Source: Cellulophaga baltica
GTDB lineage: Bacteria > Bacteroidota > Bacteroidia > Flavobacteriales > Flavobacteriaceae
NCBI RefSeq assembly: GCF_018861125.1
Contig: NZ_JAHKQN010000020.1
Coordinates: 251,831-315,830, forward strand
Length of the DNA stretch: 64,000 bases
Direction: 5' to 3'
Shown here: in pieces, positions 45,575 to 63,158 of the stretch
Layout: each line of letters opens with the position of its first letter
Numbering within the stretch: position 1 is the stretch's first letter
Program-made: the position numbers and the translations under genes
Notes under the pieces: generated by a model
What the model was told of the DNA's origin: nothing
Seen by the model: only the letters and a program-made list of their open reading frames with translations
Databases searched by the model: none

Positions 45575-45582
45575 TACTTTTG
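45575..45582 (+). promoter_or_regulatory. -7 box of the alpha-2-macroglobulin gene
   Basis: TACTTTTG matches TAnnTTTG exactly and lies 33 nt before the chosen ATG at 45616. It also overlaps a TTG in frame with the gene, which argues against that TTG as the start. Confidence 0.5.
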
Positions 45583-45615
45583 TACTGTGTCATATTTGAC
45601 ATTCAATTAATAATT

Positions 45616-48600
45616 ATGAAAAAAGCAACAGCAATACTTATACTTATATTATTCTCACAGATGACACAGGCACAAGACAACAATTCATCATACAAAATTT
45701 TATGGGAGAAAGTTAAAAAGTTAGAGAATGATAGGCTCACTAAATCTGCTCTAGAAACTGTTGATTTTATTAAAACTAAAGCAAGAAAAGAGGAGAATAC
45801 ATCTCAAATAGTAAAATCGCTTCTTTTTTCTTCTAAATATATATTGATACTTGAAGAAGATGCACAGCTTGCTATTATTAATGATTTTAAATCTGAAATT
45901 GCACAAGCAAAAGCGCCTACTAAAAATGTTTTAGAAAGTTATTTAGCAAATTTATACTGGCAATTTTTTCAACAAAACAGGTATCTGTTTTATAACCGAA
46001 CTAAAACTGAAGAAAAAGTTGATGCTACTGATTTTAGAACTTGGGATTTAACGACACTTTTTAATGAAATAAGCATTCATTTTAATGCTTCATTAGAAAA
46101 CAGTGCTTTTTTAAAAGGAGTGTCTGTTCGTGATTTTGAAGTAGTATTAAACACACAAGATCAATCTGAAAAATACAGACCAACTTTATATGATTTATTG
46201 GCACATACCGCATTGGATTTTTATACCACTACTGAAACAAGTATTACGCGTCCTGCTGATAAATTTGAGATTGACAACCCAGAAATGATTTGCGAAGGGT
46301 ATCAATTTATCAATCAAAAAATAGCAACTACAGATGCTACTTCATTGCAATCAAAGGCATTGCTTATTTATCAAGAATTATTAAAATTTCATGCCAATGA
46401 TAAAAATTTAGACGCTTACGTTACCGTAGATATTGAACGTTTGAACTTTATTAAAGAAAATGCGACCTTCAATTCTGTTTCAGATTTTATGCTGACAACA
46501 CTGCAAAACTCATCAGAGCACATAAAAAATGATGCTAACTGGGCGTTGTACCAATACGAAATAGCAAATTTATATTACCAGCTGGGTAATTCTTATTCAC
46601 CTAATGCAAAAGAAGAACACCGATGGAAAAAGAAAGAAGCTATAGCGCTTTGCGAAACAATTATTGCAAAATTTCCTAAGAGTGTAGGCGCATCAAAAAG
46701 TCATAATTTAAAAAATAACATAACACAAAAAAGTCTTTCATTAACCAACGAAAAGTTTATTTCGGTAAATAAACCTTCTCGAATACTTTTAAAGTATACC
46801 TATATTAATGACTTAGAGTTTACGGCTTATTCTATCAATTCAAAACAGCTAGAGGAGTTACATAAAATTTATCAAGATGATAAACAGTTGGCCTTTATAA
46901 AAAAATTAAAAACCTATAAAACTTGGAGTGATACGCTAAAAGATGAAAGCGATTACCAATCACACAGTATTGAAGTTGTAGTTCCTGAATTAAAAAACGG
47001 ACAATATGTTATCGTTGCTAGACCTAAAAATGATACTACAAACTCTTTTGCATTTAGCACCTTACAAGCGACAGATATGGTTTTGGTGGAATCACAATCA
47101 AATTCAGAACATATTTTTCAGGTAATTGACAGAGAAAATGGTAAACCACTGATTGATGTAAAATTGGCATTGACTTACCGAATAAATTATGACAACAAGT
47201 TTATCACTAGAAATTTTACTACAGATAAAAATGGATTGGTTACAATTTCTAAATCTGAAGACGATTGGACAGAAATTCATATAAAAGTATCAAACAGTAC
47301 TGATGTAGCATATTTTGACAATTTTTACATTAACCGAGATTATACAAGAATACCCAATAAAGATACACAATATAGTAGCTTTTTATTTACAGATAGAAGT
47401 ATTTACCGCCCAGGCCAACCTTTGTACTTTAAAGGAATTGCAATGGCTAGTAAAGATAATAGTCAATCCGTTTTAACGGATACTACTGTTGAAGTAAGAT
47501 TAGTTGATGCTAATTATCAAGAAGTAAAAAGCTTAAGCTTTAAAACAAACGAATACGGTTCATTTACAGGAGAATTTATTTTACCAACTAATGGATTAAC
47601 AGGTAATTATCAATTACAAGTAAGTTCAAAACAAGTGCGCATAAATGGTAGTGCCTATTTTAATGTTGAGGAGTATAAGCGTCCTAAATTTAAAGCCTCT
47701 TTTAACCCTGTAACAGAAACGTATAAAGTAAATGATACGGTAAAAGTAACAGGAACTGCAGTGGCATATGCAGGTAGCACTATTAGCGATGCTAAAGTAA
47801 GTTATACTGTAAAACGTAACGTTTATTATCCAAGATGGTATTATTGGTCACGTTCATATTACAATAATTCTTCTAACCAAGAAATTGCATTAGGAGAAAC
47901 TACAACCGATGGTTCAGGTAATTTTACGGTACCTTTTAAAGCAATACCTGAGTCTGGTGCATCTCCTGCAAATTCACCAACATTTAGCTATACGGTTACT
48001 GCGACAATTACTGATGTTAATGGCGAAACGCATGACACATCTACAACAGTAAATGTTGGGTATCATACACTCACAGCGCGTATAAATAGTAGCGATGTTA
48101 TTGACAAAAATGCTAAGGATAATAAACTTTCAATAAGTACAAGTAATTTGAACGGGCAATTTGTACCTGCAAAAGGAACATTAAAAATGTACAAATTAGT
48201 GGCTCCTGAACATGTGCTTAGAAACAGACCTTGGTCTGCTCCTGATTATAAAAGTTTATCTAAATCAGAATTTAAAAAATTATTCCCGCACGAGGCTTAT
48301 GATGCCGAATACGATAGTAAAAATTGGGAGAAAGGTAAATTAGTTTGGTCTACAGATTTTGATAACGGTAAAAATAGTACAGTAGAACTCCCGAATACAA
48401 AAAAATGGGAATCAGGAGCCTATGTTATTGAACTTGAGACCAAAGATAAATTTGATCAATTAGTGAAAGATAAAGTAATCACTAAATTATTTAGTGAAAA
48501 TGATAAAACTTTAGCTGACCAACAATTGTTTACTATAGCTACTGATAAAGAAAGTTATGAGATTGGTGACAATGTAAAAATTACTTTAAAATCGGCCATA

Positions 48601-51600
48601 AAAGATGTGTATGTTACTGTTGCTGTAGAAAAAAATGAGAAGATTATAAGTACTAAAATTATTCATTTAGAAAATACTATAAAAAGCTTTACGGTTCCGG
48701 TAACTAAAGAAGATCTTGGTGGTTTTGCTTTAAGTTATAGTTTTTCTGCTTTCAATGCGTTTACATCAGGAGTTGCACAAATTACAATACCTTATCCAAC
48801 TACAGATTTACAGATAGAAACAATTACTTTCCGAGATAAATTACAGCCGGGAACTGAAGAAACATGGTCTTTTAAAATTAAAGGTCCGAAAGGCGATAAA
48901 GTTACAGCTGAAATTTTAGCGAGTATGTACGATGCCTCTTTAGATGCTTTTGGTGGTAGCCGAAATAACTGGTATTTAAATGCTATTTCAAAACCAAGGT
49001 ATTACTCGCAATTTCGTAAAAATGCAAACAATAGTTACGGGAACAAGAGTTTTGATACCAACTGGAATTTTAACTCAGGCTATTCACATTCTTGGCAAGG
49101 GTATGACTCCTTTAATTGGTACGGTCTAAATATTGGTTATTACAGCCGTAATCAGAATTTTTCTACGATGCGTATGAAAAGAAGTGCTTCCCCTGCAATG
49201 CTTGAAGATAGTGTAGAGATGGATTTTAATGAGGTTAGTGAAGTTATTGCTGTTAATGATAATGCTACGGGTATCGCAAATGAACCTGCTCCTGAGCTTA
49301 ATAGTCAAGTTACGAATGAAACGGATTTTGATGCTATTGCTATTCGCGAAAATTTACAAGAAACAGCCTTTTTCTTTCCACAATTACAAACGGATAAGGA
49401 AGGGAACATAAGTTTCAGTTTTACAACACCTGAAGCCCTAACCGAATGGAAATTTCAATTATTAGCACATACTAAAAATTTGGCATCTAGTGTTACTCAT
49501 TTATCAACCGTAACACAAAAAGAACTGATGGTAACGCCAAATGCTCCTCGTTTTTTAAGAGAAGGCGATCAAATTGTAATCAGCTCAAAAATTTCAAACC
49601 TAACTGATAAAGAATTAAGTGGTGAAGCAAAATTGGTGTTAACAGATGTTATAACCAATAAAGATATTTCTACAAGTCTAGCAAATGAGCAATTAAAAAC
49701 ATTTACTGTAGATGCTGTTGGGAATACACAAGTATCATGGACACTTACAATTCCTAAAAATTTACAAGTAGTGCAATATAAGGTGATTGCAAAAACAGGA
49801 GAGTATAGTGATGGTGAACAAAATGTATTGCCTGTACTAAGTAACCGTATGTTGGTGACTGAAACTCTGCCAATGTGGGTGCGTAGCAATCAAACTAAAA
49901 ACTTTAGTTTAGATAAGTTGAAGAACAACACATCAAGCACCTTAAACAATCATAAATATACGCTCGAAATTACATCAAACCCGGCGTGGTATGCCGTACA
50001 AGCATTACCGTATTTAATGGAATATCCGTATGAATGTAATGAACAGACATTTTCAAGATATTACGCAAATACTTTGGCGAGCCATATTGCAAATAGCAAC
50101 CCAAGAATACAAGAAGTATTTAACCAATGGACAAATTCTGATGCTTTGTTGAGCAATTTAGAAAAAAATCAAGAATTAAAATCGCTATTAATACAAGAAA
50201 CACCTTGGTTGCGTGATGCACAGTCAGAAACTGAACAGAAAAAACGTATTGCTTTGCTTTTCAATATGAATAAGATGAAAAATGAGCAAGCTTCAGCATT
50301 AAATAAATTGCAACAAAACCAAATGAGTGCTGGCGGATGGTCATGGTTTGCTGGTGGTCGTGCAAACAGATACATTACACAACATATAATTACAGGCTTT
50401 GGGCATTTGAACAAATTAGGCGTAACTACTACAGATGCTAGCACAGAAAAAATGATTAAAAATGCGGTCAAATATTTAGATGATGCTTTTGTTGCAGAGT
50501 ATGAGTACATGAAAAAGCATACGAAGAATATTAATAATAACCATTTAACCAATAGCCAAATTCATTACTTGTACATGCGTAGCTTTTTTAGCAATATAAA
50601 AACAAGTAGTAAAGTAGCTAAAATTACAAGCTACTATAAAGGGCAAGCACAAAAATATTGGAAAAACAACAACTTATATGCTAAGGGAATGTTGGCTTTG
50701 GTGCTGCATAGAATGGATGATACAAAAACAGCCAATAAAATTATTCGTGCTTTAGAAGAGAATAGTATTGTTAATGATGAGTTGGGTATGTACTGGAAAG
50801 AAAATACCAACTCGTGGTACTGGTACCAAGCACCAATAGAAACACAAGCCCTATTAATTGAAGCTTTTGCCGAAATTAAAAATGATGTTGATACCATTGA
50901 TAATTTAAAAATATGGTTATTAAAAAATAAGCAAACCAACCAATGGAAAACTACCAAAGCAACTACGGAGGCTGTATATGCTTTGTTACTACAAGGTAGC
51001 GATTGGCTTTCTGTTACTGATGCCGTTACTGTTTTAGTAGGTGGTGAAAAAATACCTGATACAAAGTTAGAAAACGTAAAAGTAGAAGCAGGCACTGGTT
51101 ATTATAAAACCTCATGGGCAGAAAATGAAATAACACCTAAAATGGCCGATGTACAAATTTCTAAAAAAGGAAATGGCATAGCATGGGGTGCTGTATACTG
51201 GCAATATTTTGAAGATTTAGATAAAATTACTACTGCCGAAACACCACTAAAATTAAAGAAAAAGTTATTTAAAACTAACAATACAAAAACAGGTGAAGAA
51301 CTTACTGAAATAACCAATAATACTGATTTAAAAGTGGGCGATTTGGTACGTGTACGTATTGAGTTAAGAGCCGACCGTGATATGGAATACATTCATATGA
51401 AAGATATGCGTGCCTCAGGTTTAGAACCTGTTACAGTATTTTCGCAATACAAATGGCAAGATGGTTTAGGCTATTATGAAAGTACAAAAGATGCTAGTAC
51501 TAATTTCTTTTTTGACTATTTACCAAAAGGTGTATATGTTTTTGAATACGATTTAAGAGTGAATAACGCTGGCGATTTTAGTAACGGTATTACCACCATA

Positions 51601-51666
51601 CAAAGCATGTATGCACCAGAATTTAGTAGCCATAGTGAAGGTGTACGTGTAAAAGTGGGTAAATAA
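45616..51666 (+). CDS. Secreted alpha-2-macroglobulin-family protein with thioester motif
   Basis: The ATG at 45616 gives MKKATAILILILFSQMTQAQ, a signal peptide; an upstream TTG at 45580 is inside the promoter box. The 2016-residue protein has about 500 residues of helical N-terminal region, an MG2 domain (FTDRSIYRPGQPLYFKG), further macroglobulin domains, the bait/A2M region (FFFPQLQTDKEGNISFSFTTPEALTEWKF, in parts), and a thioester motif CNEQ at 1474-1477 in PYECNEQTFSRY. A terpenoid-like helical domain and an end domain follow. Such proteins trap proteases attacking the cell. The usual partner pbpC is not adjacent. Confidence 0.92.
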   Translation: MKKATAILILILFSQMTQAQDNNSSYKILWEKVKKLENDRLTKSALETVDFIKTKARKEENTSQIVKSLLFSSKYILILEEDAQLAIINDFKSEIAQAKAPTKNVLESYLANLYWQFFQQNRYLFYNRTKTEEKVDATDFRTWDLTTLFNEISIHFNASLENSAFLKGVSVRDFEVVLNTQDQSEKYRPTLYDLLAHTALDFYTTTETSITRPADKFEIDNPEMICEGYQFINQKIATTDATSLQSKALLIYQELLKFHANDKNLDAYVTVDIERLNFIKENATFNSVSDFMLTTLQNSSEHIKNDANWALYQYEIANLYYQLGNSYSPNAKEEHRWKKKEAIALCETIIAKFPKSVGASKSHNLKNNITQKSLSLTNEKFISVNKPSRILLKYTYINDLEFTAYSINSKQLEELHKIYQDDKQLAFIKKLKTYKTWSDTLKDESDYQSHSIEVVVPELKNGQYVIVARPKNDTTNSFAFSTLQATDMVLVESQSNSEHIFQVIDRENGKPLIDVKLALTYRINYDNKFITRNFTTDKNGLVTISKSEDDWTEIHIKVSNSTDVAYFDNFYINRDYTRIPNKDTQYSSFLFTDRSIYRPGQPLYFKGIAMASKDNSQSVLTDTTVEVRLVDANYQEVKSLSFKTNEYGSFTGEFILPTNGLTGNYQLQVSSKQVRINGSAYFNVEEYKRPKFKASFNPVTETYKVNDTVKVTGTAVAYAGSTISDAKVSYTVKRNVYYPRWYYWSRSYYNNSSNQEIALGETTTDGSGNFTVPFKAIPESGASPANSPTFSYTVTATITDVNGETHDTSTTVNVGYHTLTARINSSDVIDKNAKDNKLSISTSNLNGQFVPAKGTLKMYKLVAPEHVLRNRPWSAPDYKSLSKSEFKKLFPHEAYDAEYDSKNWEKGKLVWSTDFDNGKNSTVELPNTKKWESGAYVIELETKDKFDQLVKDKVITKLFSENDKTLADQQLFTIATDKESYEIGDNVKITLKSAIKDVYVTVAVEKNEKIISTKIIHLENTIKSFTVPVTKEDLGGFALSYSFSAFNAFTSGVAQITIPYPTTDLQIETITFRDKLQPGTEETWSFKIKGPKGDKVTAEILASMYDASLDAFGGSRNNWYLNAISKPRYYSQFRKNANNSYGNKSFDTNWNFNSGYSHSWQGYDSFNWYGLNIGYYSRNQNFSTMRMKRSASPAMLEDSVEMDFNEVSEVIAVNDNATGIANEPAPELNSQVTNETDFDAIAIRENLQETAFFFPQLQTDKEGNISFSFTTPEALTEWKFQLLAHTKNLASSVTHLSTVTQKELMVTPNAPRFLREGDQIVISSKISNLTDKELSGEAKLVLTDVITNKDISTSLANEQLKTFTVDAVGNTQVSWTLTIPKNLQVVQYKVIAKTGEYSDGEQNVLPVLSNRMLVTETLPMWVRSNQTKNFSLDKLKNNTSSTLNNHKYTLEITSNPAWYAVQALPYLMEYPYECNEQTFSRYYANTLASHIANSNPRIQEVFNQWTNSDALLSNLEKNQELKSLLIQETPWLRDAQSETEQKKRIALLFNMNKMKNEQASALNKLQQNQMSAGGWSWFAGGRANRYITQHIITGFGHLNKLGVTTTDASTEKMIKNAVKYLDDAFVAEYEYMKKHTKNINNNHLTNSQIHYLYMRSFFSNIKTSSKVAKITSYYKGQAQKYWKNNNLYAKGMLALVLHRMDDTKTANKIIRALEENSIVNDELGMYWKENTNSWYWYQAPIETQALLIEAFAEIKNDVDTIDNLKIWLLKNKQTNQWKTTKATTEAVYALLLQGSDWLSVTDAVTVLVGGEKIPDTKLENVKVEAGTGYYKTSWAENEITPKMADVQISKKGNGIAWGAVYWQYFEDLDKITTAETPLKLKKKLFKTNNTKTGEELTEITNNTDLKVGDLVRVRIELRADRDMEYIHMKDMRASGLEPVTVFSQYKWQDGLGYYESTKDASTNFFFDYLPKGVYVFEYDLRVNNAGDFSNGITTIQSMYAPEFSSHSEGVRVKVGK

Positions 51667-51746
51667 TTATCATTATTTTTTGCATTTGCGGTTTTCCCCA
51701 ATTGAGAGTAAGAATTTTATAGTATTTTTAAAAAGTGTAAAAGTTA

Positions 51747-51772
51747 GGATATGTGTACTAGTACACATATCC
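51747..51772. repeat. Perfect 26-bp palindrome at the start of the cassette-like region
   Basis: A perfect inverted repeat centred on ACTAGT (half-site GGATATGTGTACT) lies 20 nt before the first small gene. Its inner half TAGTACACATAT recurs in the repeat at 54727-54793 and, with changes, at 55856-55921. It is followed at once by the core GTTAGCAAAC. Confidence 0.75.
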
Positions 51773-51776
51773 GTAC

Positions 51777-51786
51777 GTTAGCAAAC
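51777..51786 (+). repeat. Cassette core before the first small gene
   Basis: GTTAGCAAAC lies 5 nt before the ATG at 51792. Its exact reverse complement GTTTGCTAAC occurs at 52622-52631, right after the second small gene, so the two cores bracket both genes. Confidence 0.6.
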
Positions 51787-51791
51787 ATTTA

Positions 51792-52196
51792 ATGAGAGTT
51801 TGGAATATACTTTTGATTTTAGCAATAGCTTATGGTTGTCAAAATGACCGAAATCTTGAAGGAAACTATTTTGTATGCAGCAATGGCGAATACTCAGAGG
51901 TATACTTCAAAAAGGACTCAATGAGCATGGCAGCAGATAATGAATGGATTTCACTTACTGAATGGAGAAAAATCGAACTTAAAAATGATACTCTTTATTT
52001 TGATACGTTTGGAGAATGGCGAGAATCATCGAGAGCTCAAATAAAATACGTCGGTAAAGATAAAATCCAATTGAGAATTTTAGAAACTAACAAAACGATA
52101 GAACTAGAACCTATTTATGAAAATCTAAACTTTGAAAAACCTAAAAAACTCTGGGATAGCTTTATAAGGCGGCTGAATTCCCATAAATGTGAATAA
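51792..52196 (+). CDS. Lipoprotein of unknown function, cassette-like gene 1
   Basis: The 134-residue protein has a lipobox (AYGC) and a mature beta-rich part (EGNYFVCSNGEYSEVYFKKDS, DTLYFDTFGEWRES). I recognise no family. It lies between two GTT..AAC cores, 5 nt after the first one, with no promoter of its own visible. It is followed by a 27-nt spacer and the second small gene. Confidence 0.6.
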   Translation: MRVWNILLILAIAYGCQNDRNLEGNYFVCSNGEYSEVYFKKDSMSMAADNEWISLTEWRKIELKNDTLYFDTFGEWRESSRAQIKYVGKDKIQLRILETNKTIELEPIYENLNFEKPKKLWDSFIRRLNSHKCE

Positions 52197-52203
52197 TAAA
52201 AAC

Positions 52204-52213
52204 GTTGGCTAAC
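52204..52213 (+). repeat. Cassette core between the first and second small genes
   Basis: GTTGGCTAAC lies 10 nt before the ATG at 52224. It differs from the core at 52622 (GTTTGCTAAC) by one base. The motif is quasi-palindromic, so it resembles its neighbours in both orientations. Confidence 0.5.
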
Positions 52214-52223
52214 TTTTATCAAA

Positions 52224-52604
52224 ATGAAGGAAATTATTGTTGAGAAAAATGAAGAAGATGAAGGTCTAATACCTCATGTATGGCGACCAATTTTCAAGGA
52301 AATTGTTAGTGCTTTTGTAAAGAAAGACTACGCTTTAAGAACAGGAATTGATAAGGTAACTTCTGTCTCTGAAAATACAGCTGAACAAATCAAAGAGTAC
52401 ATCGAAGACTATGGTGAGGAATTGGTTGAACTTCCCGAAGAATCTTGGAAAACATCAGTTTATATTTATTACGGTGAGTATTGGAATTTACTAATTGATT
52501 TATGGACAAAGGCTGAGGGATTGAGTGACTTGGTGCTTAATGCTGAAGTAAGAGAAGAGAACGATGGATATGTGGTAAAAATTAGACTAGTCTATGTTCC
52601 TTAG
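52224..52604 (+). CDS. Small cytoplasmic protein resembling DUF7668, cassette-like gene 2
   Basis: The 126-residue acidic protein has no signal or membrane segment. It contains PHVWRPIFKEIVSAFVKKDY and EYIEDYGEELVELPEESWKTSVY, which recall the DUF7668 family often found in accessory regions next to immunity-like genes. The match is from memory and is not certain. It is bracketed by cores at 52204 and 52622. Confidence 0.55.
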   Translation: MKEIIVEKNEEDEGLIPHVWRPIFKEIVSAFVKKDYALRTGIDKVTSVSENTAEQIKEYIEDYGEELVELPEESWKTSVYIYYGEYWNLLIDLWTKAEGLSDLVLNAEVREENDGYVVKIRLVYVP

Positions 52605-52621
52605 AATTGGAAAATAAAAAC

Positions 52622-52830
52622 GTTTGCTAACAAAACCTAAACGTAATGCGGACTTTAGGGCAAAACCGAAAGGTCAATGTATATTTATAAAGTCGCTAAA
52701 TCTTATGGATTTAGCTTTGGACAAGAAAAAAATAATACTAAACAATAAGCTTTAGCTTCGTGCGTAGACGGAAACGAAAAGTTTCCTTGCCTCCGGCACT
52801 ACGCTTAGCTCAAGCGTTGTAAACAAGGCA
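52622..52830 (+). repeat. Long imperfect inverted-repeat element A (attC-like)
   Basis: This non-coding element starts with GTTTGCTAAC and ends with GTTGTAAAC (52816-52824). The left arm 52637-52652 pairs with the right arm 52792-52808: 14 normal pairs, two A-C mismatches that become T-G wobbles on the bottom strand, and one unpaired base. An inner GGAAAC/GTTTCC stem lies at about 52770. The 62-bp part 52644-52705 matches 55 of 62 bases at 55783-55844. The element is seen; the attC-like role is inferred. Confidence 0.6.
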
Positions 52831-52839
52831 AAAAAATTA

Positions 52840-53775
52840 ATGAGAAAGGAATTATTAGACTCGAAAAAGAAATCCGCAAAAAAGCTTCGAGTTTGTATGT
52901 TTGATAATTGTAATAAAACAGCGATTAAATCTCATGTATTACAGAAAAATGGTATTTTAAGGGAAATATCAGTCAATAATCACCTCATTCAGCCTTTACC
53001 ACCTAGTCCATTTGAAACTGAAAACAAAGGCGTTTTTGATTTCAAGAAAATAGGGGTTAACGATGTTTATACTTTTAAAGGCTTTTGTAAAGAACATGAC
53101 AACGATTTATTTGAAGTAATCGAGTCTAATGAAAATCTGAACTTTGATAATGAAGAACAAAAAGCGTTGCTTAGTTATAGAGGTTTATGTCAGGAAATTA
53201 GGAGAAAAGAAATTGCCCATGAGTGGCTAAGTGATGTGATAAAAGCATGTCCCATTCAGAGCATACATATGATGCAATCAACAATGTTAGGCTATAAACA
53301 TGGAATAGAAAATCTAACGTATTTTAAAACTGAATTTGAAAAAGCTATAAAATCAAATGACTTTTCTTCATTTGTACTTCGAACGATAAAAATTCCAAAA
53401 ATCGAATTATGTATTTCTGTACCGTTAAACATTGACGATAATAAAGGGATTGATAAAATTCCATATACTACTTCTTTTATTAATGTTTTTCCAAAAAACA
53501 ATACTTGCTACATTATCGCAGGATTTCATAAAGACTATAAGTGTAATTGGACAAACAAATTTTTAAAAAACATAAGTACTGGCAAAAGGAAAATAATATT
53601 TAAAGAGCTAAGTGATTTGGTAACCACTAGACTTGAATTCTGGACTATGTCTCCAAATTTGTTTAATAAAATATCAGATAAGAATATTAAAAAATACAAA
53701 AAACTGTTCACAGATAATCTTTTCAATCATAGTCAAAGTTTAAAAACCGAATTGAACTTATTTAGACATATTTGA
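52840..53775 (+). CDS. Zinc-ribbon / HNH-like protein of unknown function, cassette-like gene 3
   Basis: The 311-residue protein has paired cysteines C19-x4-C24, a Ser-His at 31-32 (AIKSHVLQKNGIL) and C83-x2-H86-D87 in FKGFCKEHDNDLFEVIE. This C-C...H...C-H-D arrangement resembles a treble-clef/HNH-type zinc fold in accessory, often defence-related, proteins. The rest is a mixed alpha/beta domain of unknown type. The gene is bracketed by exact complementary cores, GTTGTAAAC before and GTTTACAAC after, as a single cassette would be. Confidence 0.6.
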   Translation: MRKELLDSKKKSAKKLRVCMFDNCNKTAIKSHVLQKNGILREISVNNHLIQPLPPSPFETENKGVFDFKKIGVNDVYTFKGFCKEHDNDLFEVIESNENLNFDNEEQKALLSYRGLCQEIRRKEIAHEWLSDVIKACPIQSIHMMQSTMLGYKHGIENLTYFKTEFEKAIKSNDFSSFVLRTIKIPKIELCISVPLNIDDNKGIDKIPYTTSFINVFPKNNTCYIIAGFHKDYKCNWTNKFLKNISTGKRKIIFKELSDLVTTRLEFWTMSPNLFNKISDKNIKKYKKLFTDNLFNHSQSLKTELNLFRHI

Positions 53776-53783
53776 AAAGCCCA

Positions 53784-53985
53784 GTTTACAACAAAACCTA
53801 TGCTTAATGTGGGCTAAGGTGATTATTCGCAGCGTTTGCGTATTTTTATGATGTCCACAAAATCTTTAGGATTTTGCTTTAAACAAGGAAAAGAAAAAAC
53901 AAAACAAAAAGATTTTGCTATGTGTGCGACGGAAACGAAAAATTTCCTTAATTCCACACTACGCTTAGTAGCAACGTCAGCCAAA
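53784..53985 (+). repeat. Long imperfect inverted-repeat element B (attC-like)
   Basis: This is a second copy of element A: it begins GTTTACAAC then ACAAAACC, and its 53856-53970 part aligns with A at 52696-52809. The arms 53798-53812 and 53954-53968 pair with 12 of 15 normal pairs. A C-G pair in A (52649 with 52796) is a T-A pair here, a compensatory change that supports a real folded structure. The end at about 53973 (CGTCAGCC) is a degenerate core before the next gene. Confidence 0.55.
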
Positions 53986-53997
53986 AAAAAAAACTTA

Positions 53998-54633
53998 ATG
54001 AGATTAATATTGAAAATTTTTATTATAATTCCAATTATATTGAGTGGTTGTATTACTCAAGAAAATAATGAAAAACATATATTTTATATTCACGGCAGGA
54101 TAATTGAGCAACAAGGAAAAAATGCTATTAGTGAAAAATTCGGAAAATATGAATTTGACAGTATTATATCTGCTATAGAAGTAGAAAATTCTATTGTTCA
54201 CTATGAGATTCGAAAAAAGAATGTAGAACCTAGGAATTATGCAAATAAAGTTTCTAAACAGATTGATAGTCTAATTAAATCTGGAATAAAACCTATTGAC
54301 ATTACTGTTATAGGAGCTTCTAAAGGAGCAATAATTGCCTCTAATATTTCTGACATTAATGAATCTCAAATTAATTATGTTTTTCTTGCTGGCAATAACG
54401 AATATCAAGAAAATAATAACGAGTGGAAGTTTCATGGACAAGTGTTATGTATATATGATTTGTCTGATGGAATTGCGGGAAAAAATTACAGTCATTGGAA
54501 AAATAAAGAAAACTTTACAACAAAATTTGAACAACTTGAAATAGAAACAAATTTAGGGCATGGATTTTTATATAAACCTTTAAGAGTTTGGACTGAACCA
54601 GCAAAGACATGGATATTGACACAAACCTTATAA
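53998..54633 (+). CDS. Lipoprotein with alpha/beta-hydrolase-like motifs, cassette-like gene 4
   Basis: The ATG at 53998 gives MRLILKIFIIIPIILSGC, a good lipobox; the longer in-frame start at 53836 lies inside repeat element B. The 211-residue protein has FYIHGRIIE near the start, GASKGA with the GxSxG nucleophile pattern in the middle, and NLGHGFLY near the end, so a hydrolase fold with Ser and His is plausible. I do not know the family. No promoter is seen. Confidence 0.65.
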   Translation: MRLILKIFIIIPIILSGCITQENNEKHIFYIHGRIIEQQGKNAISEKFGKYEFDSIISAIEVENSIVHYEIRKKNVEPRNYANKVSKQIDSLIKSGIKPIDITVIGASKGAIIASNISDINESQINYVFLAGNNEYQENNNEWKFHGQVLCIYDLSDGIAGKNYSHWKNKENFTTKFEQLEIETNLGHGFLYKPLRVWTEPAKTWILTQTL

Positions 54634-54726
54634 AAAAAGAAAACAGCCGAACGCACGACAAAGAACTGAGGTAAAAAACAAACAAAACCTTCATTAAATT
54701 TAGATAATATTATTCTAGGCTTATAG

Positions 54727-54793
54727 ATTCAAAAAAATGTATTTTAGTACACATATATAAAATTGTAGTAGGTTATTAGATAGAGTGCAGTTA
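54727..54793 (+). repeat. 67-bp repeat D, matching 55856-55921
   Basis: The sequence from ATTCAAAAAA to GATAGAGTGCAGTTA is repeated at 55856-55921 with about six changes and one indel. It contains TAGTACACATAT, the half of the 26-bp palindrome at 51747-51772. It ends at the core GTTAAC, 30 to 40 nt before the next gene. Confidence 0.7.
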
Positions 54794-54831
54794 ACTACAA
54801 CTAAAAACAAAAAGAGTCCAATTTGAAAAAC

Positions 54832-55758
54832 ATGTATTATAGAAAAATAGGCGTTGCACTTGGAGCGATTTTTGTATTGGCAAATATCGTAGCATTTTCA
54901 CATGCCTATAAGTTCACTCACTTTTCTGAAAATGATTTAAAAAAGACTAGTAAAGATTTGACTTTTACTGAAAAAGTAAAGATTATGGTATTTGGAATTA
55001 ATAATCCAAGACCTAAAACCAATTCATATCCAAGTCAAAATTTTGAAACATTTACGGTTGATAGTAATGTTAAACTAGAATGCTGGAAAATTGAAATCGA
55101 AGACTCAAAAGGAACCGTTATCCTTTTTCATGGTTATGGTGGTGAAAAATCCTCATTACTTGATAAATCAGAATTATTTAACGAGCTAGGTTTTACCACA
55201 ATTTTGGTGGACTTCTCAGGAAGTGGTGGGTCTGAAGGTAATCAGACAACAATTGGATTTAATGAAGCGCAACAAGTAAGAGATGTTTATAAAAAAATCT
55301 TGGCAAATGATGAGAATAATATTTATTTGTTTGGAACTTCAATGGGTGCAGTCGGTATTATGAAATCCGTGAATGAAGGAGGAGTTTTCCCAAGTGGATT
55401 AATTTTAGAGTGTCCTTTTGGTACTATGTATGAAACTGTTCAATCTAGGTTTGAAATTTTGAATGTACCTTCATTTCCTATGGCAGAATTATTAATGTTT
55501 TGGGGTGGAATTCAAAATGGATTTTGGGCATTTAATCATAATCCAAAAGAATATGCTAAGAAAATTAAAATACCTGTAATGTTAATGTATGGAGCTCATG
55601 ATGAAAAAGTCAGTTTATCAGAAATAGATGAAATATTTAATAATTTTAAAGGGGAAAAGGAACTAAAAATATACCCTGAATCTGGACATGAGAATTACTT
55701 AATAAAATATAAAAAAGAGTGGAAATCGGATGTGGAAGCGTTCTTAAACAAGAAATAG
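54832..55758 (+). CDS. Alpha/beta hydrolase with membrane anchor, cassette-like gene 5
   Basis: The ATG at 54832 gives 308 residues; a TTG at 54823 would add three. An N-terminal hydrophobic segment (IGVALGAIFVLANIVAF) anchors the protein. The hydrolase motifs are complete: HGYGG oxyanion loop, nucleophile S170 in FGTSMGAVGI, an acid in YGAHDEKV and the histidine in ESGHENY. Such BEM46/YsgA-like hydrolases act on esters or peptides of unknown type. It is the most conventional of the cassette-like genes. Confidence 0.85.
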   Translation: MYYRKIGVALGAIFVLANIVAFSHAYKFTHFSENDLKKTSKDLTFTEKVKIMVFGINNPRPKTNSYPSQNFETFTVDSNVKLECWKIEIEDSKGTVILFHGYGGEKSSLLDKSELFNELGFTTILVDFSGSGGSEGNQTTIGFNEAQQVRDVYKKILANDENNIYLFGTSMGAVGIMKSVNEGGVFPSGLILECPFGTMYETVQSRFEILNVPSFPMAELLMFWGGIQNGFWAFNHNPKEYAKKIKIPVMLMYGAHDEKVSLSEIDEIFNNFKGEKELKIYPESGHENYLIKYKKEWKSDVEAFLNKK

Positions 55759-55782
55759 GTAGCTACTAACAATGAATAAGCA

Positions 55783-55921
55783 TTATGCGGACTTTAAGGC
55801 TAAACCAAAAGATCTGTGTATATTTATAAAGTCGCTAAATCTTAGTATTCATCTAATTCAAAAAATATATTTTAGTGCACATCTATAAAATTACAGTAGG
55901 TTATTAGATAGAGTGCCGTTA
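55783..55921 (+). repeat. Mosaic repeat C: left half A-type, right half D-type
   Basis: Positions 55783-55844 match 52644-52705 of element A (55 of 62), while 55856-55921 match repeat D at 54727-54793. The element therefore joins two otherwise separate repeat halves. It ends at the core GTTACCCAAC (55918-55927), 2 nt before the TTG of the next gene. Confidence 0.65.
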
Positions 55922-55929
55922 CCCAACAT

Positions 55930-56190
55930 TTGATTAAAAAACCGCAGAAATTGAAATTTAAAATTGGACTTTCATTATTTTTTATTTTCGGATTTTTCTT
56001 TTTTAGAATAATCGGACCAATAATTACTGGGAAATTGAAAGATTTTCATATCAGAAATAATACAGGATTAGTTGAGAAAGCACCAGGTATTTTTAAATTT
56101 TTTATTCTTTTTTTTAAGTGTTTCGAAATATTCTGTTTGATTTATGTGGTAATGATTTGGACTGGATTTGTAAAAATACCAAGCGAATAA
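55930..56190 (+). CDS. Small two-TM membrane protein, cassette-like gene 6
   Basis: The 86-residue product has two hydrophobic segments (LSLFFIFGFFFFRIIGPII and FFKCFEIFCLIYVVMIW) and a basic start. It must begin at a TTG (55930), because there is no ATG in the first part of the frame. The TTG lies directly after the core GTTACCCAAC. I recognise no family. Confidence 0.5.
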   Translation: MIKKPQKLKFKIGLSLFFIFGFFFFRIIGPIITGKLKDFHIRNNTGLVEKAPGIFKFFILFFKCFEIFCLIYVVMIWTGFVKIPSE

Positions 56191-56261
56191 TGTTCTAAAA
56201 TATAATAAAGCACTTTACCCAACAATAGTAACCGTTGCACAAGCCTATAATTTATAAAATA

Positions 56262-57203
56262 ATGAGATTTTTTTTGACAATACTAATCTTAGTACTAAAT
56301 ATAGCATCTTGTAAAGAAAAAGATAGTTTGAGTCTTACAGTTTTAAAAAGCCAACTAATTAATAATGTACCCAGTGGTTCCGGAATGGGAGCATCAAAAA
56401 AGGGTTGTTATGTAATAAGTGACGATTCTCCTTATCTTTTTAAATTAGATAGTAGCAATCAAATAATTACTAAAACAGAAATATTTGCTACAACTCATTT
56501 ACATGAAAATCGTATTTTAAAAAAATACAAACCCGATTTTGAAGCTTTAGAAGTAATTAATGAAAATGAACTAATTATTTTCGGTTCTGGCTCAAGCACA
56601 CCACAAAGAGATTTGTTTTTACATATCTCATTAAAAGATAGTGTAGCAGTTAAAACCTATCAAATAACCTCTTTCTACAATAATTTAAGAAAATCTAAAT
56701 TATTAAAAAATGCACCGCTTAATATAGAAGGCGTAGCGGTTTACAATGACACTATTTATTTATTCAACCGAGGTGAAAATGTAATTTTCAGTTTTATATA
56801 TAAAGATTTATTAGCATATTTTAAAGGAGAAGCCGCTTACCCTGAACCCAAAACCACACTTTTTTCATTACCAAAAATCAATGGGATAGAATCTGGGTTT
56901 TCAGGCGCTACAATTTTGAAAAATAGACCTCTAATCATTTTTACATCTTCAGTAGAAAATTCAGGAAATAGCGCCTATAATGATGGTGAAATATTGGGTA
57001 GTTTTATTGGAACTATTGAGATGTCGGAGAATAAAGTTTCAAATCACTACAAATCGGCACCTATACCTAATGTTGAAAAAGCTTTAAAAGTTGAGGCAGT
57101 AACTATTGTAAATGATGATACTCCTGAAAAAATAGAAATTTCGCTTGTAACAGATGATGATATGGGAAGCTCAATAAAAATAGATTGTATACTTAAATTA
57201 TAA
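56262..57203 (+). CDS. Lipoprotein beta-propeller-like protein (DUF6929 type), cassette-like gene 7
   Basis: The ATG at 56262 gives MRFFLTILILVLNIASC, a lipobox; an in-frame TTG at 56235 is part of the core GTTGCACAAG. The 313-residue protein has SGSGMGASKKGCYVISDDSPYLF, KPDFEALEVINENELIIFGSGS and LNIEGVAVYNDTIYLFNRG, the strand pattern of the DUF6929 family that resembles a propeller. Function unknown. It is the last gene of the cassette-like region. Confidence 0.7.
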   Translation: MRFFLTILILVLNIASCKEKDSLSLTVLKSQLINNVPSGSGMGASKKGCYVISDDSPYLFKLDSSNQIITKTEIFATTHLHENRILKKYKPDFEALEVINENELIIFGSGSSTPQRDLFLHISLKDSVAVKTYQITSFYNNLRKSKLLKNAPLNIEGVAVYNDTIYLFNRGENVIFSFIYKDLLAYFKGEAAYPEPKTTLFSLPKINGIESGFSGATILKNRPLIIFTSSVENSGNSAYNDGEILGSFIGTIEMSENKVSNHYKSAPIPNVEKALKVEAVTIVNDDTPEKIEISLVTDDDMGSSIKIDCILKL

Positions 57204-57686: not shown

Positions 57687-59717
57687 ATGATGAAATATTT
57701 AGTTTTAATAATTACATTTATAAGTTCACAGCTTTTTGCGCAACAAAATAACAATCATTTAACAGCAACGATAATTGGCTCTGGCTCTCCTAAATTTAAT
57801 ATAGAACGCTCTGGTCCTTCTGTATTAATAAGCTACAAAACTACCCAAATTTTAGTTGATATGGGAAATGGCACTCAAGCCAACTTAAATAAAAATAATA
57901 CTAAAATTAAAGATTTAGATGGTTTGCTTTTTACGCATCATCATTTAGATCATAATGAAGAATTTGCTCCAATTTTTATTCAGTCGCTTCTCGGCGGTAG
58001 AAAAATGACTATTGCGGGGCCTAAACAAACCACATCAATCCTTGATCATATTATTGATATTTATGAGGAAGATATTGAGTATCGATTATCAAAATCTCAA
58101 CGAAGTTTAAAAGATATTACAGGAAACTTTACAGCTAAAAACTTAACAGGAAATGAACCATTTTATATTGGAGACATTAAAATAACGTACACCCCAGTAA
58201 ACCATACTATTGCCACGCTTGCCTATCGTTTTGAAGCTGGTGGAGAAGCTGTTGTGATTTCTGGAGATTTAACTTACTCTAAATCGCTTCCCGTTCTGGC
58301 TAAAAATGCCGATTATTTAATTATGGATTCTGGTGGCGCTATTGAATTAGGAAAAAAAAGACATCATAAAGGCGTTAGCAATAATAATCCTAAGAGAAAT
58401 ACTAACAAAACAACACAAAAAGCACACGTTAATTTATCTGAGAGTTCACAAATGGCTAAAGAAGCTAATGCTAAACATTTGGTCTTAACTCATTTCAACT
58501 TTACGAATATTGATGAGGAAGCTACCACTACCGAAATACGCAAAAATTATAGTGGTGAAATTCTATATGCTAAAGACTTGATGGTTTTACCTAATAATAT
58601 AGACACCAACAGTCATGATGGCGTAACACACTCGCATAACAATGAGTATTTATCAGAAATTAAAAATACTAATAAAGAAAAACTATCACTTCAAAACAAA
58701 GTTTCTATTACAGAAGATAGACAAAATGATGTTCGAATTATAAAGTCAAATGCGATTCCTAACCATACTGTTGGTACATTCCCCACAAAAGGAAACCCGA
58801 ACACGATTACAGAACAAAATAAAGTATACACTATTGATTTAACACCGACATTAGCAAATAAAATTACCTACGTGTATGACTTAGGCATTGATAGCGGAAG
58901 ACCGAGTTATGTGTTTGGTGTTGCTGTTAATGGTGTAAAATTTGAACCTTCGGCCAACGAATATTTTAGAGATACAGAAACAAATGAACCTAATTACGAA
59001 TGGACACTTGAGCCATTGAGTGACGAAGTAAATTTAGGTGAAGATTATAACAATGCTCATGTACAGCCCAATGGTGAATATCATTATCACGGAACTCCCA
59101 CAGGATTGGTTGCTGATTTTGACAAAACAAAAATGACATTAGTAGGTTGGGCTGCAGACGGATTTCCTATGTATTACAAAATGGGATATAAAGACCCTAT
59201 GGATGCAAATAGTGAACTTATCCAATTAAAATCTAGCTACACTCTAAAACAAGGTGAAAGACCTGGTAATGGTGTTGCTGCACCAAATGGAACTTATTCT
59301 GGGAAATATGTTCGTGACTACGAATTTCAAAATGACTTTGGCGATTTAGATGCCTGCAATGGAAGAACTGGAGTAACACCAGAATTCCCAAATGGAACCT
59401 ATTATTATATCGTGTCTGACGGATTTCCTTCTGCTAGTAGATGTTTTATGGGAACGCCAAGTAATGATTTTAAAATTGGAGGAGGTAGAAGTCAATCGGA
59501 AGAGGGTAAAAACAAGAAACAGCAAAGAGCAACACAACAGCAACCATCAAACACAGTGCCTAGTTTTGCAAATATGCTCAAGAATATGGATTCAAATAAT
59601 GATAGTAAAATATCAAAATCTGAAGCCAGAGGAAAACTAAAAGAGAACTTTAAAAATAGAGACAAAAACAATGACGGTTACATCACTGAAGATGAAATGA
59701 CAAGAAGGAACAGATAA
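57687..59717 (+). CDS. Secreted metallo-beta-lactamase / YHYH / EF-hand fusion protein
   Basis: The 676-residue protein has a signal peptide (ISSQLFAQ). It then carries a metallo-beta-lactamase domain (about 25-300) with all metal ligands: H84-x-H86-x-D88-H89, H173, D194 and H269, as in arylsulfatase/RNase Z-type enzymes. A YHYH domain follows (about 350-600, EYHYHG at 464-469, with WAADGFPMYYKMG), then a Gln/Lys linker and two EF-hands (from D635 and D659). It should act outside the cytoplasm. A small EF-hand lipoprotein follows 11 nt later. Three families that normally occur apart are joined here. Confidence 0.9.
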   Translation: MMKYLVLIITFISSQLFAQQNNNHLTATIIGSGSPKFNIERSGPSVLISYKTTQILVDMGNGTQANLNKNNTKIKDLDGLLFTHHHLDHNEEFAPIFIQSLLGGRKMTIAGPKQTTSILDHIIDIYEEDIEYRLSKSQRSLKDITGNFTAKNLTGNEPFYIGDIKITYTPVNHTIATLAYRFEAGGEAVVISGDLTYSKSLPVLAKNADYLIMDSGGAIELGKKRHHKGVSNNNPKRNTNKTTQKAHVNLSESSQMAKEANAKHLVLTHFNFTNIDEEATTTEIRKNYSGEILYAKDLMVLPNNIDTNSHDGVTHSHNNEYLSEIKNTNKEKLSLQNKVSITEDRQNDVRIIKSNAIPNHTVGTFPTKGNPNTITEQNKVYTIDLTPTLANKITYVYDLGIDSGRPSYVFGVAVNGVKFEPSANEYFRDTETNEPNYEWTLEPLSDEVNLGEDYNNAHVQPNGEYHYHGTPTGLVADFDKTKMTLVGWAADGFPMYYKMGYKDPMDANSELIQLKSSYTLKQGERPGNGVAAPNGTYSGKYVRDYEFQNDFGDLDACNGRTGVTPEFPNGTYYYIVSDGFPSASRCFMGTPSNDFKIGGGRSQSEEGKNKKQQRATQQQPSNTVPSFANMLKNMDSNNDSKISKSEARGKLKENFKNRDKNNDGYITEDEMTRRNR

Positions 59718-59728
59718 AAACAAAAACA

Positions 59729-59971
59729 ATGAAAAAACAATTCAAAATTTTAACAGCAATAAGTTTAGTAATAGCTTTTACAAATTGCCAGGCTAAAAAA
59801 GAAGTAACTAATAACAAACGTCAAAAAACATCTAAACTATTTGCTAGTATGGATACTAACAATGACGGCAAAATATCTAAATATGAAGCTAAAGGTGAAC
59901 TTAAAAAAAACTTTAAACAAAGTGACAGAAACAATGACGGCTTTATTACCAAAAATGAAATGAATAGGTAA
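59729..59971 (+). CDS. Small EF-hand lipoprotein
   Basis: The 80-residue protein has a lipobox (FTNC) and two EF-hands, DTNNDGKISKYE and DRNNDGFITKNE. They are nearly the same as the C-terminal EF-hands of the fusion protein 11 nt upstream (DSNNDSKISKSE, DKNNDGYITEDE), including the spacing GELKKNFK/GKLKENFK. The gene probably arose by duplication of that tail. It is co-transcribed with the fusion. Confidence 0.85.
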   Translation: MKKQFKILTAISLVIAFTNCQAKKEVTNNKRQKTSKLFASMDTNNDGKISKYEAKGELKKNFKQSDRNNDGFITKNEMNR

Positions 59972-60151
59972 AAAATACTATGGTTGCTTTCCTTTATATT
60001 CGAACATTCTCAGTTTAAAATTGAGTGATTTTTATTTAAAAATAGTTTGACAGATAAAAGTCAAACTATTTTTGAGAAATTAATTATCACTGAAAACCGT
60101 GACAAAAAGATAGCTTATAGCGTATACTTTAGTACTCATAAAATATACCTA

Positions 60152-60715: not shown

Positions 60716-60778
60716 TGTTTTAAACCCTTAATATTATTTAGTTTCGCAGCTATTATATTAAATTCTTGCACTTAAAAA

Positions 60779-61416: not shown

Positions 61417-62142
61417 ATGAAAAATATGATAAGCGTATCTGTTAAAAAACCATGTTCAGAGAAATTTAGTAACTTTAATACTACCAAAAATGGTGGTTTC
61501 TGTTCTTCATGCCAAAAAGAGGTTATTGACTTTACAGCAATGACAACTACTGAAGTTCTATCTTTTTTAAGTGCAAAAGAACAAAACACCTGCGGTCGTT
61601 TCAAAAACTCACAGCTAAAGGAATTAAAAATGGTAAATTATAACACCTCAAATTCATTAAATTATTTTACAAAAAGTATTGCTACAATGGGCTTTTCCTT
61701 ACTAGCCTTATGTGCTGTGAATAATTTAAATGCGCAAGACAATTTGGGTATTAATACGAGCCAATTTCAAACAGAAGTACAAACTAGCACTACAGCTGAA
61801 CAAGATGATACATACACGGTAAAAGGTGTTGTTATGGACGAACATAATATGCCTTTAGCAGGGGTTTCAGTGGTTTTAAAAGGAACAAATGATGGTGTTT
61901 CAACAGATTTTGATGGTAAGTTTGAATTTTCAAAACCCTTGAAAGTAGATGATGTTTTGGTTTTCAGTTCTATAGGTTACGATACTAAACACTTCACCGT
62001 AACTGAAAATAAAACAAGCACTATTGATGTTACCATTACCTTTGAATCTTCTGATATTGAACTTATGGGTGAGATTGCTATTGAGGGTACTTATAAGCCA
62101 AAAAGAAATATTTTTCAAAAAATTGGCTCAATTTTCAACTAA
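61417..62142 (+). CDS. Cys-cluster / one-TM / CarboxypepD_reg-like protein
   Basis: The 241-residue protein has an N-terminal cytoplasmic segment with several cysteines (KPCSEKF, GGFCSSCQKEVIDFTAMT, QNTCGRF) that could bind zinc. A membrane helix follows (about 88-104), then an outer CarboxypepD_reg-like domain (VKGVVMDEHNMPLAGVSVVLKG, STDFDGKFEF). This set is a recurring flavobacterial architecture of unknown role. Its stop shares one base with the start of the transglutaminase-like gene, so both are translated together. Confidence 0.8.
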   Translation: MKNMISVSVKKPCSEKFSNFNTTKNGGFCSSCQKEVIDFTAMTTTEVLSFLSAKEQNTCGRFKNSQLKELKMVNYNTSNSLNYFTKSIATMGFSLLALCAVNNLNAQDNLGINTSQFQTEVQTSTTAEQDDTYTVKGVVMDEHNMPLAGVSVVLKGTNDGVSTDFDGKFEFSKPLKVDDVLVFSSIGYDTKHFTVTENKTSTIDVTITFESSDIELMGEIAIEGTYKPKRNIFQKIGSIFN

Positions 62143-63158
62143 TGAAAATAGTCAATCTACTACTATGTATTTTATGCGTACAAATTGGTTATTCACAAAG
62201 ATCTGATTTTGCTGAAATTAGTTTTACAAAGGCCGATAGTATTGCCATGCATTATAAAGGTGCTAGCCTTAATAAGTTGCCAATTTTAGTTCATAACCTA
62301 ACGGTAAATCTAAAAACTGATGTTGAGAAATTTAGAGCAATATATACTTGGGTTAGCACCAATATTGAAAACGATTATGATTCGTATGCAAAAACAAAAA
62401 GGAAACGTAGTAAAATATTGAAAAATAAGAATGCTTTTTTAGATTGGAATAAAAGCTATACACCTAAAGTATTTAAAAAATTAATTCAAAATAAAAAAAC
62501 AGCTTGTACTGGTTACGCATACCTACTTCGTGAAATGACGAATTTAGCTTCAATTCCCTGCGAGATTGTTAATGGTTATGGTAAAACTGCAACGGTACCT
62601 TTGAACCTTAAAAGTTTACCCAACCATTCTTGGAATAGGGTTTTATTAAACAATAAATGGTACTTGTGTGACGCTACGTGGTCTGCAGGGCAAACTAACT
62701 TAGATGAAAACAATATTCCTAAGTTTAATTTTGAATATCATGACGGTTATTTTTTAGCAACTCCTGAACTTTTTATATTAAACCACTACCCCTTAGATAG
62801 TCTAAATTCAGGGTTAAAAAAAGAGGTTACATTTAAAGAGTTTATCGCATTCCCTATTGTGTATAATAATGCTTTTAAATATGATATAATCCCTACTTCA
62901 CCCACAACACTAGAGCAGCAATTGACTAAAAATGAAACTTTAAATATTACGCTATTATCCTTAAAAAAATATGAGGTAACTAAATTAAATTATAAGATAG
63001 GGAATGGTAGTTCATATAAAGACGGTAATCTTATTGAACTAGTTAAAAGTAATAAAGTTACGCTAGGCCATACATTTACAAAAACAGGTGTATTTGATAT
63101 TCAAATCTATTATGGTGATCAGATACTTTATACATATGTAGCTAAAATAAAAAGATAG
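62142..63158 (+). CDS. Secreted transglutaminase-like protein
   Basis: The 338-residue protein has a signal peptide ending GYSQ. A transglutaminase-like domain carries the catalytic triad: C122 in KTACTGYAYLLREM, H162 in LPNHSWNRV and D177 in WYLCDATW. In this family (kyphoscoliosis-peptidase-like) the domain usually acts as a cysteine protease or is a peptide-binding module. The C-terminal 120 residues are beta-rich. It is translated with the Cys-cluster membrane protein. Confidence 0.88.
   Translation: MKIVNLLLCILCVQIGYSQRSDFAEISFTKADSIAMHYKGASLNKLPILVHNLTVNLKTDVEKFRAIYTWVSTNIENDYDSYAKTKRKRSKILKNKNAFLDWNKSYTPKVFKKLIQNKKTACTGYAYLLREMTNLASIPCEIVNGYGKTATVPLNLKSLPNHSWNRVLLNNKWYLCDATWSAGQTNLDENNIPKFNFEYHDGYFLATPELFILNHYPLDSLNSGLKKEVTFKEFIAFPIVYNNAFKYDIIPTSPTTLEQQLTKNETLNITLLSLKKYEVTKLNYKIGNGSSYKDGNLIELVKSNKVTLGHTFTKTGVFDIQIYYGDQILYTYVAKIKR

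Follow-up and report, generated by a model that had tools for sequence, protein, structure and literature searches.

Integrons are a main bacterial route of gene capture and shuffling, and the papers considered here regard the integrase IntI, including its additional domain, as the enzyme that defines them: a paper on archaeal integrons uses the IntI-specific domain as the defining character (PMC9668308), and a survey of tyrosine recombinases describes the insertion as essential to integron function and incompletely conserved in its subgroup (PMC8138268). In VchIntIA, the alpha-I2 helix makes contacts near an attC extrahelical base (PMC3053210). In a review and in the archaeal paper, Bacteroidota are listed among the integron-bearing phyla (PMC8618304, PMC9668308), and the Bacteroidetes/Chlorobi group is counted among the intI-bearing divisions in a 2008 survey (PMC2426708). 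For Bacteroidetes, IntegronFinder 2.0 gives integrases known earlier without arrays and one complete integron, in Salinibacter (PMC9024848), and a cluster of attC sites was reported from a Polaribacter phage using canonical attC models (PMC9892861). Here we analyse a 64-kb stretch (hereafter, the window) of the 3.9-Mb genome of Cellulophaga baltica (36 contigs), in which the region 51747..57203 had been described, in an initial annotation made from the letters alone, as an integron-like array of gene cassettes without a recognised integrase. This array is very probably an integrase-less cassette cluster belonging to an integron-like system that is widespread in Bacteroidota and run by an Xer-like tyrosine recombinase encoded elsewhere. 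No earlier report of this system was among the records listed in searches of an open-access library that has no preprints and few subscription journals.

Two pairs of cores bracketing genes of the window were recovered by exact string search as the initial annotation had stated: GTTAGCAAAC (51777-51786) has its reverse complement GTTTGCTAAC 3' of gene 2 (52622-52631), and GTTGTAAAC (52816-52824) its partner GTTTACAAC 3' of gene 3 (53784-53792), none of the four occurring again within the window. Of the non-coding repeats described between the genes, the spacers 3' of genes 2 and 3 are indeed related to each other and have more copies in the genome. Core pairing within the window was not significant when compared with shuffles (6-nt pairs, 3 vs 1.18 expected; 7-nt pairs, 1 vs 0.38). 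The window alone is weak in this respect; the proof comes from elsewhere in the genome and from related genomes.

The repeat of attC-like site 1 has 41 matches in the C. baltica genome at E-values up to 10, 28 of them at 1e-4 or better (the query and two places in the window included), many on short contigs or close to contig ends. Sites were collected with a finder that requires the order AAC, spacer, 16-bp stem, loop, stem, spacer, GTT, with complementary and ungapped arms. It returned 66 rows in the fetched stretches of this genome, with 12.3 rows per 205 kb in a Markov-shuffled control before any size-class filter; retaining two size classes (inner loops of roughly 77 and 142 nt) and dropping one duplicate locus left 52. 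Of 31 pairs of adjacent sites, 25 enclose a cassette whose start is the reverse complement, over at least 4 nt, of its own far end, where 5000 permutations of the pairings gave a mean of 2.2 and a maximum of 8 matches; a core match inside one and the same site occurs in only 4 of the 52. Such a split-core footprint is what would be left by a circular cassette whose single folded site is opened and inserted, with half of the box in front and half behind. An alternative scoring gave 24 of 30 pairs (permutation maximum 7) and, in relatives, 72 of 115 (maximum 11), Algibacter onchidii being counted twice (L155, L157) in the strand and core counts of relatives.

A covariance model of the short-class site found 44 copies in the C. 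baltica genome and matched 132 of the 149 genomes examined in the family (at most 23 candidates scored per genome). The initial reading of an array with an undescribed Bacteroidota relative of attC is supported. When 150 candidates were scored per genome, three genomes had 135, 107 and 93 copies, and two site-negative genomes again had none; among the matches listed, the copies of the three genomes make up long one-strand runs adjoining the integrase (as we call the array-associated recombinase), with further copies elsewhere. Across 296 genomes of the phylum, 65 match the site at 1e-6 and 91 the integrase profile at 1e-75. A Rufibacter locus, from another order of Bacteroidota, carries sites of about 56 nt and thus a third size class with the same layout (L175, 15574-17727); this chain has eight matching cores, compared with at most two in shuffles.

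The sites are also asymmetric with respect to strand. Under a scoring that treats both wobble types alike, stem oppositions on the top strand are A:C rather than G:T at a ratio of 81:3 in 36 sites of C. baltica and 215:7 in 94 sites of relatives; since a top-strand A:C opposition corresponds to a T:G wobble on the other strand, the bottom strand is the better paired of the two. It has the lower predicted DNA fold in 34 of the 36 and 85 of the 94 sites, as is characteristic of integrons. In an alignment of 36 short-class sites, 99.1% of the cells pair and 9 of the 16 pairs vary on both sides; the percentage is partly built in by the complementary arms of the finder, which does not apply to the strand bias or to two fixed wobbles, at stem positions 7 and 12, that are G-U on the bottom strand in 36/36 and 35/36 sites. 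The 16-bp stems are paired ungapped and without a bulged base in the sites examined, ungapped arms being demanded by the finder itself. The integron consensus GTTRRRY is found in only 4 of 36 cores of C. baltica and 5 of 104 in relatives.

Whole or nearly whole cassettes are found repeated, or shared between genera. One cassette of 557-560 nt occurs three times with exact ends in a single array (L147, genome G014), a sign that copying within arrays may be recent. A genome of another genus has nearly complete copies of two Algibacter onchidii cassettes, with about 93% identity and in swapped order, and an Algoriphagus cassette of 1603 nt shares its first 628 nt, at 97% identity, with part of a flavobacterial array. 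The longest open reading frame (ORF) runs in the direction of the array in 77 of 78 cassettes, while 8 of 86 lack an ORF reaching 50 residues. At 1e-5, the 78 cassette proteins never gave more than two matches to any one Pfam family, and matches to defence models at 1e-10, among the 25 listed of 83 families, concern a single protein each, with methyltransferase, HEC-06 and PD-T4-1 models among them.

The locus of the window also varies within the genus. Its left-flank gene, which we take by resemblance to be alpha-2-macroglobulin-like, is present in 17 congeners, and 16 of these loci were fetched. In seven it directly adjoins the two right-flank genes and the whole insert is absent; in eight, neither the right-flank genes nor sites lie within the fetched 8-12 kb. 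The left flank of the nearest sister species matches that of the window at 87.7% identity as far as window position 51742 and is followed by two different cassettes with their own matching cores (by eye) and then by the end element of the array near the contig end; none of the cassette genes of the window was found in its 2.5 kb. Relatives therefore do not keep the genes and spacers in order, the condition named at the outset as refuting a cassette array, and the comparison with the sister species identifies the window array as an integrase-less cluster at a putative attI-like site whose content differs between sister species. These observations bear on the possibility that the sites are static intergenic hairpins or repeats (terminators, or elements like repetitive extragenic palindromes (REP) or miniature inverted-repeat transposable elements (MITE)) and that whole genes never moved. 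The sites are indeed hairpins between genes and have many copies, and the palindrome at the left edge of the array scores as terminator-like on the minus strand. But a hairpin repeat should match itself, whereas the outer cores pair across the gene and seldom inside a single site, near-whole cassettes reappear in other contexts and the cassette ORFs are unidirectional, so that static repeats are strongly disfavoured and scarcely credible.

The initial annotation had proposed to look elsewhere in the genome for an integrase of the integron type. A recombinase associated with arrays does exist, on contigs C34 and C2, but this enzyme does not belong to the IntI type with its additional attC-binding helix. 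Both arrays lie directly behind the recombinase gene, with matching cores read off the sequence: that of C34 has two cassettes and a recombinase with an open frame of 371 residues, that of C2 eight cassettes and a recombinase gene with an in-frame stop (L061:8630-9640). This stop is near the N-terminal part, close to an A run, and may be real or a sequencing error; about 3-6 kb upstream of the C2 integrase there is a region that is relaxase- and TraG-like by resemblance only.

Relatives of the recombinase at 1e-45 or better, a cut-off that may let in some other recombinases, occur in 101 of 149 flavobacterial genera, represented by one genome each. From these positives 20 loci of 18 genomes were taken whose contig continues downstream, and 19 of them have downstream sites, 117 co-oriented with the integrase and 5 opposite, compared with 2 in one shuffle each. 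The first cassette begins 27-365 nt 3' of the integrase stop in 19 of 37 site-bearing loci. It is often preceded by a palindrome and a short AT-rich stretch (by eye), a position that fits an attI, although the attI itself is putative; edges consisting of a palindrome and GTT, as in the window, are also found 3' of several integrases (by eye) and in the sister species. No phage relative of the integrase covers 80% of the query. Partial relatives with 53-55% identity over residues 145-371 or 153-371 are found on plasmids of Acinetobacter, Klebsiella and Aeromonas, where they are annotated as tyrosine recombinase or TnpF; they represent a truncated relative not known to be associated with arrays.

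Several observations weigh against a system in which this recombinase moves the cassettes. Sites are present without an integrase match at the cut-off in 34 genomes, and the reverse is seen in 3. The finder detects no site in 8 of 21 Bacteroidota loci that extend at least 2 kb downstream, one of these being the Rufibacter locus with its chain of shorter sites. Core matches are missing in 6 of the 31 pairs of C. baltica and in 43 of the 115 pairs of relatives, for which missed sites are one possible cause, and the two sites of the window slightly favour the top strand (bottom -30.2 vs top -31.2, and -21.9 vs -22.4 kcal/mol). Finally, for plasmid-borne integrases, two plasmids being from Chryseobacterium and one from Rufibacter, neighbouring chains of matching cores were no better than in shuffles. 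The core-chain test is insensitive, given that among 12 canonical IntI loci used as a positive control only three were clearly above shuffles (11, 5 and 4 links of 6 nt), the others being near or within them, and it gives no strand information, since a reverse-complement pair is symmetric. On one of the plasmids (Chryseobacterium sp. SNU WT5, L300, 13272-17054) an IS110 transposase and a group II intron lie 3' of the integrase; both kinds of element target attC sites of canonical integrons.

The genomes with sites and no integrase match, together with IS110-type ends and transposases inside arrays, are also what would be expected if the cassettes had another mover, either the host XerC/XerD or a site-targeting IS110-family element, and the linked recombinase were a passenger. 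We consider this very unlikely, because arrays begin directly behind the integrase and nearly always on the same strand, and because the presence of integrases and sites is associated (both in 98 genomes, integrase only in 3, sites only in 34, neither in 14; p 9e-6, in a table built from the list of integrase matches and 17 site-negative genomes). Among 80 named of 588 relatives of the recombinase, moreover, those loci that extend at least 2 kb downstream carry a site on the same strand as the integrase in 13 of 21 cases in Bacteroidota and in 1 of 26 outside them.

The array recombinase itself differs from IntI. Between two flanking motifs there are 62-63 residues in 63 array-type rows (57 distinct) vs 104 in 20 of 20 IntI, i.e. 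the insertion of about 42 residues found in canonical IntI is absent, and in an alignment with the solved IntI4 41 residues remain unaligned. The NCBIfam model of the integron integrase, TIGR02249, matches in two blocks with 196 bits, under its cut-off of 265; the best NCBIfam match, NF040815, reaches 209.9 bits, also under its cut-off (220), and the nearest solved relative by sequence is XerA (PDB 5hxy). In a tree of 71 rows (from a short search and with numerous unresolved forks), 12 IntI form one group with two probable IntI (support 100), while all 27 array-type rows fall inside a Bacteroidota group of 36 rows with support 85, in which nine rows are not labelled as array-type. Two rows labelled as other recombinases in the motif and tree sets, L235 and L236, show the long inter-motif stretch and probably represent IntI. 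The C. baltica genome encodes two further recombinases of about 299 residues, which stand apart from the array type in the tree.

The array could still be a canonical IntI integron, or a cluster of attC sites lacking integron integrases (CALIN), with merely divergent attC sites on which IntI acts. Canonical IntI does occur in Bacteroidota, where 105 of 395 genomes exceed the cut-off, the overall architecture is the same in outline, and canonical loci of Bacteroidota do not strictly keep GTTRRRY either (by eye). However, none was found over the family cut-off in the C. baltica genome, only one occurs in the same class and none in the same family, and the array recombinase is set apart by its length between motifs and its group in the tree, which makes action by a canonical IntI improbable to a high degree. 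The absence of both the IntI insertion and, in the sites examined, a bulge in the stem agrees with a single consistent difference in the way the site is recognised.

Table 1. Features of the array region and its flanks (positions in the 64-kb window).
Feature	Position	Strand	Basis or remarks
Left flank, large gene	45580..51666	+	ORF; present in 18/18 genomes of the genus, own included
attI-like left edge: 26-nt palindrome, 4 nt, GTT	51747..51779	+	Sequence
Cassette A	51778..52816	+	Gene 1 (51792-52196) and gene 2 (52224-52604); 10-nt exact reverse-complement cores
attC-like site 1, R'' core to R' core	52622..52824	+	Finder score 12.5; relatives genome-wide
Cassette B	52817..53976	+	Gene 3 (52840-53775); 9-nt exact reverse-complement cores
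attC-like site 2	53784..53982	+	74% repeat of site 1; 3' end GTC instead of GTT
Cassette C remnant	53977..54659	+	Gene 4 (53998-54633); start and end cores mismatched
Mobile-element ends without transposase	54660..54789		Sequence comparison
Cassette D remnant	54790..55770	+	Gene 5 (54823-55758); cores mismatched
Third attC-like site, 5' half only	55766..55844	+	84% identity to site 1 over 79 nt
Second mobile-element end, in place of the 3' half of the third site	55845..55917		89% with right part of 54660-54789
Cassette E remnant	55918..56211	+	Gene 6 (55930-56190); cores mismatched
Shared end element	56212..56265	+	Also in C34 array, sister species and two further stretches of own genome
Gene 7, DUF6929	56262..57203	+	Pfam; no matching cores
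Right flank, two genes	61417..63158	+	Directly 3' of the left-flank gene in seven congeneric species

Positions 51747-53982 of the window contain two intact cassettes, and the remainder of the array is decayed (Table 1). The ORF list confirms that all seven genes lie on a single strand, but the paired cores expected for genes 4, 5, 6 and 7 did not materialise, the GTTs at 54790 and 55918 being mismatched with the cassette ends (by eye). A core-like GTTGGCTAAC at 52204-52213, between genes 1 and 2, suggests that cassette A is a putative fusion of two cassettes. Ends of mobile elements, one from the IS110 family, break up the later half of the array: the left part of 54660-54789 is 94% identical over 64 nt to an IS110-family element end in the C2 array (L061). 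At L034:4883-5354 lies a more complete copy (about 470 nt) of the element that has its two ends fused at 54660-54789. The end element has copies at L062:881-926, L255:2431-2484, L029:10997-11050 and L031:143-191, at or near the ends of several arrays, and is likely to be the right edge of the window array; it may be an insertion-sequence edge, a DDE transposase following its C34 copy, or a very short attC. Gene 7 probably lies outside the cassette array.

As to the cargo, the Pfam search assigned gene 2 to DUF7668 and gene 5 to Hydrolase_4, gave gene 4 a weak alpha/beta hydrolase match under the cut-off, and found nothing for genes 1, 3 and 6; the zinc ribbon proposed for gene 3 was not recovered. 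A scan with Rfam gave no match, and the 30 sigma-70-like promoter matches of the window compare with 28.3 in shuffles, a count that is uninformative on promoters of the Bacteroidota type. Downstream of the array, window 57687-61303 encodes a metallo-beta-lactamase/YHYH protein, an EF-hand lipoprotein, a GAD-like/Tdi1-type immunity protein and a GNAT gene; 57.2-61.3 kb is likewise missing from the seven congeners, and no cassette structure was seen in it.

In the mechanism we propose, an Xer-like recombinase of about 370 residues, intact on C34 and with the in-frame stop on C2, would recombine cassettes that each consist of a gene with a foldable attC-like recombination site at its 3' end. The bottom strand of this site would form a hairpin in which unpaired spacers of unequal length on the two sides (usually 3 nt vs 5-6) lie between outer GTT/AAC boxes and the 16-bp stem, and G-T wobble pairs at positions 7 and 12 would replace the extrahelical bases as the mark of the strand. 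A cut at GTT would open the cassette circle and join it to another GTT, either at the attI behind the integrase or at another attC, and an inserted cassette would consequently start with the reverse complement of its own R'' box. A circular intermediate, an exact cut, a single-stranded substrate and action in trans on the window array are all implied by this scheme and presumably hold.

Since the system appears integron-like in its working while its recombinase falls outside IntI, we regard it as a new integron variant. On balance we lean towards a second kind of integron in Bacteroidota, derived from an Xer-like recombinase independently of IntI, which would read folded single-stranded sites without the insertion or extrahelical bases, choose the strand by two G-T wobbles and the unequal spacer, and sustain flavobacterial superintegrons of about 100 cassettes. 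If true, integron function is served by more than one kind of recombinase, with the parallel system in a phylum that ranks among the most abundant, and the annotations examined leave a large reservoir of mobile cassettes, for the most part of unknown function, without a label as such. The system also makes strand choice by a folded site without bulged bases directly testable.

Compared with known systems, the arrays resemble integrons in their single-gene cassettes with a foldable site, in start and end cores that are complementary across the gene, in the bottom-strand bias, and in the occurrence of arrays behind an integrase, of integrase-less clusters and of arrays of about 100 sites. They differ from integrons in a recombinase that lacks the IntI-specific insertion and belongs to a different tree group, in the rarity of GTTRRRY, and in ungapped stems (imposed by the finder) with two fixed wobble pairs instead of bulged bases. 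IS110-family transposases and ends abut the R'' boxes of arrays, and an IS1111-attC group of IS110-family insertion sequences exists; these elements are best read as passengers that insert at the sites and not as movers of cassettes. The recombinase is like XerA and Xer in its best solved relative, its best NCBIfam match and its inter-motif length (62-63 vs 68-70 in Xer), but unlike them has about 90 additional N-terminal residues and is tied to multi-site cassette arrays. Whereas the XerC/XerD dimer system acts on a single dif site, the genome described here has 44 sites and six others have 33-135.

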